Positions 30,393 through 34,006 of a stretch of DNA of 64,000 nucleotides are shown piece by piece. Position numbers and translations under genes: made by a program. The first letter of the stretch is position 1. Every line of letters begins with the position of its first letter. The notes beneath the pieces were generated by a model. It did no database searches. It worked only from the letters and a program-made list of their open reading frames with translations, and was not told the origin of the DNA. Source of the DNA: Bacillota bacterium (GTDB taxonomy: Bacteria; Bacillota; UBA994; PWPR01); the NCBI GenBank assembly GCA_028280325.1, contig JANQLZ010000116.1:1-64000 (forward strand). The letters are read 5' to 3'.

Positions 30393-31631
30393 ATGAGAGA
30401 TAAAATTAGCCTGAAGCGGCTGTTGCCGTTGGGTTTGCAGCATGTTTTTGCCATGTTTGGCGCCACTGTATTTGTACCGTTAGCGACTGGTCTTAACCCT
30501 TCTGTAGCCTTATTTACCTCTGCTGTGGGGACATTATTATTTCATATTATCACTGGAGGAAAAGTGCCGGCGTATTTAGGCTCTTCGTTTGCTTTTATTG
30601 CGCCCATAATAGCTGCCTCTACAGAATATGGAGCTGCTGCCGCTTTAGGTGGCTGTGTAGTTGCCGGCTTGCTCTATGTGGCAATTGGTTATCTGATCAA
30701 GCAAATTGGTACTGATATCATTCATAGATTTGTACCTCCTGTAGTTATCGGGCCGATGATTATGGTTATTGGCCTCAAACTAGCCGAAGTGGCCAGAGAG
30801 TTTTCAGAGCAGCACTATTTAACAGCATTTTTTACTTTAGCAGTAGTGATCGTAGTCAGCATGTATGCCAAAGGATTTTTTAAGGTAATTCCAGTGCTGT
30901 GTGGAATTGCAGCAGGGTATATATTTGCCCTGATCATGCAAGAAACCGGTATTGGCCCCCAAATGATAGATTTCAGTGAGGTTGTCAAGGCCCAATGGGC
31001 TCCAGCTTTACCGGTGTTTACTTTGCCGAAGTTCAATCTCAACGCAATCCTGATAGTTGCTCCGGTTGCGTTAGTGACCATGATCGAGCATTTGGGAGAT
31101 ATGATGGCTATCAGCCGAACCGTGGGCCATGATTACATTGAAGACCCCGGTATTCATCGGACCTTATGGGGCGATGGCCTGGCAACAGCGTTAGCCGGGG
31201 TGTTAGGCGGGCCGCCGAACACCACTTATGGTGAAAATGTCGGTATTCTGGCTTTAACAAAGGTGTATAATCCGATCGTAGTCGAGGCAGCTGCCGGTAT
31301 CGTGCTGATACTAAGCCTGCTTCCCAAGTTCGGAGAATTTATCCGCACTATCCCCATGGCAGTAATGGGCGGCGTTCTGATCCTGGTTTTAGGAATGATA
31401 GCCAGTGTCGGTCTGCGAACCCTGATCGAAAAACAGGTGAATCTAATGAAAACCCGCAACCTGATCATTGTTTCAGTGGTCCTGGTCTTAGGCCTGAGTG
31501 GCATCAAACTGCTGGGGCTGGACGGTATGGGCCTGGCTGCTATTGTCGGCATACTCTTAAATCAGGTGCTGCCTGATGAGGATGATGACGATCGTAGGGA
31601 GGTGGAACTGGACCCCGAACTACCTATTTAG
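30393..31631 (+). CDS. uraA: Uracil permease, NCS2 family
   Basis: A 412-aa uracil/proton symporter with about 14 helices. Seen: LPLGLQHVFAMFGATVFVP at the start, YLGSSFAFIAP, the substrate-site region LVTMIEHLGDMMAISRTVG, and GGPPNTTYGENVGILALTKV. Its place after pyrR and its leader attenuator show it belongs to the pyrimidine regulon. The C-terminus is acidic (DEDDDDRREVE). Confidence 0.95.
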   Translation: MRDKISLKRLLPLGLQHVFAMFGATVFVPLATGLNPSVALFTSAVGTLLFHIITGGKVPAYLGSSFAFIAPIIAASTEYGAAAALGGCVVAGLLYVAIGYLIKQIGTDIIHRFVPPVVIGPMIMVIGLKLAEVAREFSEQHYLTAFFTLAVVIVVSMYAKGFFKVIPVLCGIAAGYIFALIMQETGIGPQMIDFSEVVKAQWAPALPVFTLPKFNLNAILIVAPVALVTMIEHLGDMMAISRTVGHDYIEDPGIHRTLWGDGLATALAGVLGGPPNTTYGENVGILALTKVYNPIVVEAAAGIVLILSLLPKFGEFIRTIPMAVMGGVLILVLGMIASVGLRTLIEKQVNLMKTRNLIIVSVVLVLGLSGIKLLGLDGMGLAAIVGILLNQVLPDEDDDDRREVELDPELPI

Positions 31632-31636
31632 TTATT

Positions 31637-31798
31637 GCTTCTTTCCACGGAGGCTCACATAATCGGGCTAACTCGGCGTCATACGTAAAAATCTGCTAAA
31701 AGATATACTACTCGTATTATCTTTGTAGCGGATTTTTTCTATTCCTTGATTTAGCACCAATTCTGTGAGCCACGTTATGCCCAGCGTTTCGTCGTTTA
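31637..31798. repeat. Structured intergenic repeat, copy 1
   Basis: A 162-bp unit with the same ends as copy 2 (begins CTTCTTTCCACGGAGGCT, ends TTTCGTCGTTTA). Outer stem GGCTCACA (31652-31659) with TGTGAGCC (31764-31771); inner stem AAAAATCTGCT (31687-31697) with AGCGGATTTTT (31727-31737), prolonged by AAAGATA/TATCTTT. GCGTCATACG and CTATTCCTTGAT are conserved in both copies. Confidence 0.8.
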
Positions 31799-31801
31799 GG
31801 A

Positions 31802-31965
31802 GCTTCTTTCCACGGAGGCTTTCATAATCATACCCATATCTGCGTCATACGAAGAAATTTTCTCAAAGATATACTGGTTGTATTATCCTTGCAGAAAATT
31901 TCTTCTATTCCTTGATCTGAGCATAATTCTGAAAGCCACGGTATTGCCTTATGTTTCGTCGTTTA
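31802..31965. repeat. Structured intergenic repeat, copy 2
   Basis: A 164-bp unit 165 bp downstream of copy 1. Outer stem GGCTTTCA (31817-31824) with TGAAAGCC (31930-31937); inner stem GAAGAAATTTTCT (31851-31863) with AGAAAATTTCTTC (31893-31905), a perfect 13-bp stem. Stem sequences differ from copy 1 but pairing is kept. Confidence 0.8.
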
Positions 31966-31991
31966 TTCACTCTTTCTACTCTGAATAATTC

Positions 31992-32182
31992 GTGTTACGA
32001 GAGTAACACTTCATGCCGGAGGCGCTTCATATTGCGAAGCATGCTTCATGTTGTGATAACAACACTTCATTGAGCGAGGTCGTGATTGGGCTTATTTAAA
32101 CTATATAGGAGTCAGCAACCAGAAAAGCAATCGCCCAACTATTGCAAAAACCCTACTGGAACCCGCTTGCCGAACGGCAAGC
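31992..32182. repeat. Array of short hairpins separated by CTTCAT and other spacers
   Basis: GTGTTAC-GAGA-GTAACAC (31992-32009), GCC-GGA-GGC (32015-32023), the palindrome GAAGCATGCTTC (32036-32047) and GTTGT-GATA-ACAAC (32050-32063) alternate with CTTCAT at 32009, 32025, 32044 and 32065. Further right lies GCTTGCC-GAAC-GGCAAGC (32165-32182). No open frame explains it. Confidence 0.6.
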
Positions 32183-32245
32183 CCAAACCGTTTACGCAGT
32201 AAATCCATCCCACTATTTGGAAGCAAGCCAGTAATCCAAGTAAAA

Positions 32246-32299
32246 CAATAGTTCAGCAATAGTTAAAGCAATCGTTCCAGCAATCGTTCAGCTATTGCA
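32246..32299. repeat. Four short direct repeats, 11-12 bp period
   Basis: CAATAGTT, CAATAGTT, CAATCGTT, CAATCGTT start at 32246, 32257, 32269 and 32281, followed by the inverted form CTATTGC. It sits at the end of the rqcH gene (minus strand). Confidence 0.6.
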
Positions 32300-34006
32300 T
32301 TACGAAGTAAGCCCATCTCGGTCTGCTGATTCCGGAAGCAGGCTGGCATCTGGTGTTACGTAAATGGTTTTCTGATGAGTGTACAGGACTTGTCCGGGAT
32401 GGGCACCGCGTTGCTTAAATACCCTTTTTACGGTTGTATAATCTACTGGAACATTGGCAGACTTGCTGGCTTTACTGAAATAGGCAGCCAGGTTAGCAGC
32501 CTGCAGCAGGGTTGTATCTGGCAGCTTGGCACCTTTGTTTCTGATAACTACATGGGCTCCGGGAATATCTTTGGCATGCAGCCAGCAGTCCTCTTTATCA
32601 GCCTTTTTTAAGGTTAAATGATCATTTTGACGATTATTCCTGCCGACTTCAATAATAAAATTATCTGCTGAGATGTAGCGACGCGGCCAGCTTTCCTGGT
32701 TTTGTTTTGGGTTTTTCCTGCCTTTTAACGACTTGGGCGGCTGGTAATAGCCCTCCTCAATTAATTCTTCCTTAATCTGATCTACATCAGATACCTGTAA
32801 TGAGGTGTCCACCAGAGCTAAAAGGCTCTCCAGATAGGTGATCTCCTTACTGTTTTTATCAATGCGCTTTTCCAGATTTTCCTGAGCCCGAAGTGCTTTT
32901 TCATACTTTTTATATAGGGTAGTCAGGTTTTTACTGGGAGACAGCTGGGGGTCTAGTTTGATCGTAATCCTGGGCATTTCAGGGTGATAATAATCTACGA
33001 CAGTGACCTGATCGACATTGGGTTTAATTTGATATAGATTGGCTTTTATCAGGTCCGCATTGCGTTTATACCGGTCTGCTTTTTGGGCAGCCGACAACTC
33101 TTTTTGCTGTTTGCTTAGGGTCCGCTTATTTTTAGTCAGTACTTTATTAATAATCTTGGTTAACCCCTGTTTAGCATTGCGCAGATTTTTGGCCATATTT
33201 TTGTTCATAAAGTAGTGATCTAAGGCCTCGTTTATACTGGCAAACTGTTTGTATTTTGCAGACAAATGGGTATAGGGAAGAACCCCACACCATTGCTTGC
33301 CTGATTCACTGGTGGTAATACTGGGCTGGTAATCGCAATTTGCTACCATTTCAGTGACATATCGAATAATATTGGGATAAGTATGTTTTCTAAAAACTAA
33401 TTCTCTGGCCATTAACGGGCTGATGCCGGTAAACGTTTTGACCAGTGTTGTTTCCAGATCATTGTCTGGCAGATCAATGATCTCGTGCTCAAAAATCGAG
33501 GATTTAGTTGTGGGAGGCAGCTGATAGCTAAACCCGGGTAAAATTTGTCGTACGCTGCTTACTCCATACGGCACTCTTTTTACCGCATCGATTATTTTAT
33601 GATTTGCAGCATGAGCCAGGATGATATTGCTGTGCTTGCCCATTAGTTCAGCGATTAAAACCTTTTCAATCGGATTGCCCAGTTCATCACGGCTACTGAT
33701 ATAGATTTTGACTACTCGCTCTAAATCAGGCTGTTCAATTTTAATAATTCTCCCATTGTCCAGATGCTTTCTTAAAAGCATACAGAATAAAGGTGCCTGC
33801 AATGGATTGGGCGAAGTGTGTGAGGTCAGGTGAAGCCGATAGTTCTCTGCATTACAGTTAATCAGCAAGCGGTAATTTTTTTTATTATATATTTGTAAAA
33901 TAATCTCATCTTTTTGGGGCTGGTAAGATTTTTGCAGTTTACCCCCGATTATAGTTTGCTGCAGTTCAGAAACCACAGATTTTAAGCTTAAGCCATCGAT
34001 AGCCAA
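32300..34006 (-). CDS. rqcH: Ribosome quality control factor RqcH (NFACT / Rqc2 homologue)
   Basis: A 568-aa cytoplasmic protein that binds stalled 50S subunits and adds C-terminal alanine tails to stuck chains. Seen: NFACT-N start MAIDGLSLKSVVSELQ, a long coiled-coil middle (about 270-400), and the NFACT-R domain with DCWLHAKDIPGAHVVIRN and HPGQVLYT. Older annotations call it a fibronectin-binding protein. It is convergent with uraA. Its 3' end abuts the repeat-rich gap. Confidence 0.94.
   Translation of the reverse strand: MAIDGLSLKSVVSELQQTIIGGKLQKSYQPQKDEIILQIYNKKNYRLLINCNAENYRLHLTSHTSPNPLQAPLFCMLLRKHLDNGRIIKIEQPDLERVVKIYISSRDELGNPIEKVLIAELMGKHSNIILAHAANHKIIDAVKRVPYGVSSVRQILPGFSYQLPPTTKSSIFEHEIIDLPDNDLETTLVKTFTGISPLMARELVFRKHTYPNIIRYVTEMVANCDYQPSITTSESGKQWCGVLPYTHLSAKYKQFASINEALDHYFMNKNMAKNLRNAKQGLTKIINKVLTKNKRTLSKQQKELSAAQKADRYKRNADLIKANLYQIKPNVDQVTVVDYYHPEMPRITIKLDPQLSPSKNLTTLYKKYEKALRAQENLEKRIDKNSKEITYLESLLALVDTSLQVSDVDQIKEELIEEGYYQPPKSLKGRKNPKQNQESWPRRYISADNFIIEVGRNNRQNDHLTLKKADKEDCWLHAKDIPGAHVVIRNKGAKLPDTTLLQAANLAAYFSKASKSANVPVDYTTVKRVFKQRGAHPGQVLYTHQKTIYVTPDASLLPESADRDGLTS

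Follow-up and report, generated by a model that had tools for sequence, protein, structure and literature searches.

Two hairpin units between uraA and rqcH

The window (the whole 64,000-nucleotide stretch analyzed) contains a gap at positions 31632-32299 between the convergent genes uraA (ending at 31631 with the stop codon TAG) and rqcH (ending at 32300). Directly behind uraA stand two repeat units of approximately 167 bp, with a period of 165-167 bp and without an open frame. The features of this region are as follows.

31588..31610, + strand, G/T-rich tract within the final codons of uraA (-53 to -31 relative to the unit)
31629..31631, + strand, uraA stop codon TAG (9 nt 5' of the first unit core)
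31632..31798, + strand, unit 1, beginning with the variable G/T-rich 5' junction and ending in the fixed sequence GTCGTTTA
31641..31775, + strand, unit 1 core hairpin (R1 match, 149 bits)
31676..31685, + strand, unit 1 internal-loop motif, 5' side, GCGTCATACG (superfamily form CTGCGTYAT)
31739..31750, + strand, unit 1 internal-loop motif, 3' side, CTATTCCTTGAT (superfamily form YATKCCTTGAT)
31799..31965, + strand, unit 2, of a subtype other than that of unit 1, ending in CGTTTA
31806..31941, + strand, unit 2 core hairpin (R1 match, 150 bits)
31842..31851, + strand, unit 2 internal-loop motif, 5' side, GCGTCATACG
31905..31916, + strand, unit 2 internal-loop motif, 3' side, CTATTCCTTGAT

Each unit has the architecture of a single long imperfect hairpin. 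Its outer and inner stems are separated by an asymmetric internal loop, whose unpaired blocks are CTGCGTCATACG and CTATTCCTTGAT, and a small loop closes the apical stem. The outer stem of unit 1 is formed by GGCTCACA (31652-31659) and TGTGAGCC (31764-31771), that of unit 2 by GGCTTTCA (31817-31824) and TGAAAGCC (31931-31938), and the inner stems pair in both units. Folding of the region gave a minimum free energy of -97.5, compared with a mean of -69.2 for shuffled sequences (z = -5.7). As the preliminary description had recognized, the two copies lie at these places, share the blocks GCGTCATACG and CTATTCCTTGAT, and differ in both outer and inner stems while keeping the pairing. It had also described the copies as filling the gap; they do lie inside it, but occupy only about half and are followed by small hairpins.

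The two units are only 75% identical to each other and belong to separate subtypes. Unit 2 is most similar to a unit on another contig (96% identity) and unit 1 to units elsewhere (93% identity). Tandem duplication as the origin of the pair was rejected because each unit is closer to other loci than to its partner.

A chain of small hairpins follows the units directly (31992-32078), with the stems GTGTTAC/GTAACAC, GAAGCA/TGCTTC and TGTTGT/ACAACA separated by CTTCAT spacers. The piece GTGTTACxAGAGTAACACTTCATTGAG also occurs behind units at three other loci of this genome (L022, L025 and L034). A second repeat type, consisting of arrays of 6-8 bp stems (GCTTGCCG-AA-CGGCAAGC, AATTGCGTAGCAATT, GTTTACGAAGTAAAC), is found at 32160-32320 and at loci L010, L018, L023 and L136. 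Its A/C-rich linkers (CCAAACC or CCACCCC) are constant and its stems vary. A scan of 31400-32320 found no intrinsic terminator with a GC-rich stem and T-run.

Distribution, arrays and turnover

In the genome of the window (G000), a blastn search with the repeat gave 89 matches. The preliminary description had proposed a covariance-model search of the genome and its relatives; a model built from 46 units identified at least 149 units in G000 and 54 in the one congener compared (G001), as well as homologues in other families. Thirteen further genomes of the class yielded no unit. In another family of the phylum, genome G074 was matched with an E-value of 4e-7 (covariance-model E-values being rough), and its own repeat has 53 matches. 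A joint model applied to 300 genomes of the phylum detected the family in five: G000, G074, G199 (a sister of G074), G293 and G208. The core common to G000 and G074 consists of CTGCGTTAT facing ATGCCTTGATCT, with the inner stem between them and GTAC...GTAC at the tip. The unpaired internal-loop motifs rank with the best-conserved positions and are kept across families, whereas the arms diverge freely.

Only 6 of the 45 units standing in arrays have their array partner as nearest relative; arrays are thus assembled from subtypes that arrived separately or were shuffled. Many G000 contigs end in these units. Orthologs of unit-bearing G000 genes were located in G001 using a query of 35 concatenated C-termini. 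A unit was present at the orthologous gene end in just 1 of 31 comparisons, that of formate-THF ligase. An intrinsic terminator lies within 70 nt of the stop codon in 11 of the 31 G001 comparisons, whereas terminator-like sites are rare behind G000 arrays (8/110). By these comparisons, units are gained and lost rapidly and frequently occupy the place of a former terminator. Because native terminators have been lost at these genes, the comparison also suggests that some copies took over 3'-end duty as a secondary role.

Placement at gene ends

Of 105 G000 arrays that were read, nine were too near a contig edge, leaving 96; genes were called by a simple longest-ORF rule. An upstream stop codon on the same strand is present at the array start (-42 to +30 nt) in 67 of the 96 arrays, and the gap between stop codon and first unit is 2-17 nt in most. 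No units on the opposite strand were found within 70 nt of a gene end in G000. TAG is the stop codon of 40 of 57 unit-bearing genes, compared with 31 of 131 other genes at the same loci (p = 3e-9). The upstream genes, read by eye from the sequence, include uraA, formate-THF ligase, RNase J, valyl-tRNA synthetase, HtpG and FtsY among others, with no common function evident. Some arrays follow other features: a tRNA gene at G000 loci L101 and L024, and the T-run of a complete terminator at G000 loci L013, L115 and L149 and G001 loci L052 and L089. The gene-end rule also holds in G208 and G293, where most re-read units start 0-7 nt past the stop codon (mostly TAG), contain it or follow a terminator.

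Units keep a constant distance between their core and their 3' end, which is GTTTA or GGTTA (individual ends include CGTTTA and CATTTA); the GTTTA end is followed by G. On the 5' side, TAG or TAA is followed by a G/T-rich junction of variable length (2-17 nt), and the spacing is alike behind genes and between tandem units. At loci L098, L126 and L132 this junction carries runs of six to nine G, as if these had been added or had slipped during insertion. Downstream of many arrays (G000 loci L026, L027, L030, L043 and L046) there are G/T-rich tandem repeats of roughly 11 bp (GGTTGGCAATAGGTTGGCAGTTG).

Unit-bearing genes of both G000 and G001 share a G/T-rich tract at a constant distance from the unit (-53 to -31), with a G content of 0.3-0.43 and a C content of about 0.1. 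The tract is codon-silent. At codons -5 to -15, the G+T content of third positions is 0.75-0.85, compared with 0.56-0.58 in 118 background genes; codons nearer to or farther from the stop have normal third positions. The tract was absent by eye in G208 and G293. It could be either a target preference or a later signal, G001 orthologs being too diverged to decide, and it is without explanation in the mobile-element model discussed below.

Covariation and the folding strand

Across 46 units, 94.3% of the cells at paired positions are complementary, compared with 81.7% in shuffled alignments and about 40% when the pairing is slid. Double-sided changes were found in 28 of 37 pairs, against 15.5 in shuffles; none of 500 shuffles reached this number and no slid version came near it. 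The claim that a folded molecule is maintained, and not a simple duplication, is borne out both by these changes and by the greater similarity of each partner to other loci. Nearly all stem changes are from one Watson-Crick pair to another, with few intermediates.

The few imperfect pairs are strongly asymmetric. Counted as cells and not as independent events, A-C mismatches outnumber G-U pairs in G000 (125 units; 113 cells, 2.5%, vs. 43 cells, 0.9%), in G001 (30 vs. 4) and in G074 (34 vs. 9, leaving out one invariant G-T pair; pairing from RNAalifold on trimmed units). A-C mismatches are thus 2.6-7.5 times commoner in three lineages. Under selection on a sense RNA, G-U pairs should outnumber A-C mismatches. 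Because an A-C mismatch on one strand is a tolerated wobble on the other, it is apparently the complement strand that has to fold. The fold of the sense mRNA is accordingly disfavored as the selected form, and two roles proposed in the preliminary description, a small RNA and a transcript-end structure, are not supported as the reason for the pairing. G074 elements are mostly antisense to neighboring genes (13 of 19 are in a -/- context) and have this asymmetry too; it therefore goes with the element and is not caused by transcription of the host gene. Strand-biased mutation could contribute to the A-C excess. Such a wobble-asymmetry test offers an easy means of asking which of the two strands is functional in a palindromic repeat.

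Insertion into terminators in related genomes

In G074, many elements lie inside intrinsic terminators and are flanked by an exact direct copy of the hairpin, 21-25 bp in length and specific to the locus. At locus L201, for example, GGCCCCCTGTTCACAGCAGGGGTCC is found on either side of the element. G199 is about 93% identical to G074 and has three empty sites (L250, L251 and L259). Each consists of one intact terminator where G074 has hairpin, element and hairpin, a net gain of 169-182 bp. Read together, the flanking copies and the empty sites show insertion with duplication of the target hairpin in the G074 genus. Target-site duplications, a check suggested in the preliminary description, are therefore present at hairpin length in G074; in G000 and G001, direct duplications were not above control. 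Elements of the G074 genus have short inverted ends (TCAG...CTGA). Further palindromic inserts have invaded the stems of some of them (G199 L249, L253 and L255; G074 L205, L214, L216 and L222).

Proposed model for a mobile hairpin element

The pair behind uraA probably arose by two independent arrivals of a non-autonomous mobile hairpin element of approximately 167 bp that targets gene ends. Of the roles considered in the preliminary description, that of a mobile non-autonomous element is supported by the high copy number, the near-complete turnover between congeners, and the empty sites and target duplications in relatives.

The proposed model is as follows. A putative enzyme acting in trans would recognize the folded complement strand (the hairpin with its internal-loop motif) and join the element to a target at a gene end. 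In G074 and G199, this target would be a terminator hairpin that is cut at both of its ends, once on each strand, and so becomes duplicated. If the cuts fall at the two bases of an extruded hairpin, the terminator-targeting lineage would acquire a duplication matching the hairpin in length. In the G000 genus, the target would be a TA(G) site directly behind the gene. As the fixed GTTTA end is followed by G, an inserted unit would rebuild the TTTAG target, and arrays could grow by further insertions. For G000 and G001 we infer insertion, rather than see it, because no target duplication was found there. Target choice differs between the lineages, which counts against the model. No enzyme or transposase was linked to the family, and the Y1 transposase loci that were checked have no unit nearby.

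It is possible, as a tentative extension, that these elements form a separate class in which a putative recombinase reads the folded element strand through the internal-loop motif and places it at gene ends, with duplication of the terminator hairpin where one is present. Both partners in the reaction would then be folded DNA, and whole gene 3' ends would be remodeled. If the mobile-element interpretation holds, a whole superfamily of small elements has come to target gene 3' ends and terminators as a safe harbor, and insertion can duplicate or replace terminators. The family would also provide a testable system for how an enzyme chooses gene ends and would account for a large class of intergenic repeats that break assemblies.

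Alternative explanations

A somewhat unlikely alternative is an ordinary MITE, derived by internal deletion from a DDE insertion sequence with a transposase that happens to favor palindromes, including terminators. The units are small, noncoding (no open frame), numerous (at least 149 copies) and evidently mobile in relatives, where G074 and G199 provide target duplications, empty sites and the short inverted ends TCAG...CTGA. However, the fixed-length duplication with terminal inverted repeats typical of MITEs was not found: the length in G074 varies with the terminator (21-25 bp or more), and G000 and G001 have no duplication above control. Moreover, conservation across lineages lies in the internal-loop motif and not in the ends. 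No full-length relative was identified, and no autonomous parent insertion sequence was seen in the unit flanks that were read.

Alternatively, the units may be functional 3'UTR modules whose fold in the mRNA after the stop codon serves as a terminator substitute or exonuclease block, and which spread by recombination because they are useful. The sense orientation 2-17 nt from stop codons, the terminators in 11 of 31 G001 ortholog comparisons that are rare (8/110) behind G000 arrays, and the synonymous-site selection upstream would all be explained in this way. Even so, this origin is quite unlikely, as G-U pairs are rarer than A-C in three lineages and most G074 copies are antisense to neighboring genes. 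Transcription would scarcely reach those units that stand past a tRNA gene or a complete terminator. The gap behind uraA, which has no T-run terminator, also counts against this explanation.

The double changes themselves could have another source, template-switch correction of imperfect palindromes during replication. That this process produced them with no selection on folding is likewise quite unlikely: it would explain why almost every change is Watson-Crick to Watson-Crick with few intermediates, but not why unpaired motifs are among the most conserved positions in several families or why three lineages share one strand asymmetry of mismatches. Template switching could also act together with selection, keeping the arms complementary.

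Least likely of all are REP/BIME-like palindromes moved as single-stranded hairpins by a Y1 (RAYT/IS200-IS605) transposase, which would match the bottom-strand folding signature, the intergenic location downstream of genes and the Y1 genes of G000 (4) and G001 (9), but Y1 elements leave no target duplication as G074 does, the units are 4-8 times the length of a REP and lack a terminal GTAG/CGTC-tagged short hairpin, and none of the five Y1 loci scanned with R1 (of 13 in G000 and G001) has a unit nearby.

Comparison with known repeats

Against Rfam 15, the window gave no match at the gathering score and only chance-level matches at a relaxed threshold. The annotated phage and plasmid records searched gave no match, nor did viral contigs for the G074 core pattern; viral contigs did contain two exact matches to a CTATTCC...CAATTCTG pattern, which were not recovered by the covariance model. 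In the open literature on terminator-targeting small repeats, no earlier description of the superfamily was found, although absence there is no proof. The element family is best classified as a variant, not previously described in the literature searched, of known small palindromic repeats. PATEs, which derive from IS200/IS605 elements, insert 3' of a fixed tetra- or pentanucleotide without duplication. In G000 the left junction is TA(G)-like and no duplication exceeded the control; G074 does duplicate its target.

REP/BIME and the GTAG- and CGTC-tagged repeats are short palindromes found mostly downstream of coding regions, limited to a genus and present in tens to hundreds of copies (PMC3733652). 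The CGTC superfamily is also without a known transposase (PMC3733652). The present family is similar in being palindromic, downstream of genes, genus-limited and of comparable copy range. However, its units measure approximately 167 bp with a conserved asymmetric internal loop, compared with tagged hairpins of 20-40 bp, and CGTC occurs only within the internal-loop motif GCGTCATACG. The units also form head-to-tail arrays of one orientation, target stop codons or terminators and, in a relative, duplicate at hairpin length. ERIC/RU-1 and RU-2 are MITE-like, non-autonomous intergenic palindromes of 100-200 bp, often in UTRs (PMC2759123, PMC2229807), and so are the bcr repeats of the Bacillus cereus group (cited in PMC3446304). 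Unlike these, the present family has no fixed-length duplication in G000, is strictly placed and oriented at gene ends, and has a core common to distant families while its arms diverge freely.

Integron attC sites are recognized as a folded single strand, with structure outweighing arm sequence, and lie just behind stop codons in one orientation. The units resemble attC (PMC3053210) in the importance of structure over arm sequence and in their position behind stop codons, and may also share a folded bottom strand, as the excess of A-C over G-U points to the complement. Membership was rejected, as the GTTRRRY/RYYYAAC boxes are absent: the 3' ends read CGTTTA, CATTTA, GGTTA and the like, and the 5' side has no AAC box. 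Cassettes and an integrase are likewise lacking, and the units stand behind housekeeping genes scattered on the chromosome. Group IIC introns share the targeting of terminator hairpins and also use attC-like hairpins as targets, but the units are far too short, have no intron domains or reverse transcriptase and, in relatives, duplicate the hairpin. Insertion sequences of the IS1634/IS1549 type produce long target duplications of variable length. The likeness would lie in these long variable duplications, whereas the duplication in G074 equals the terminator hairpin.
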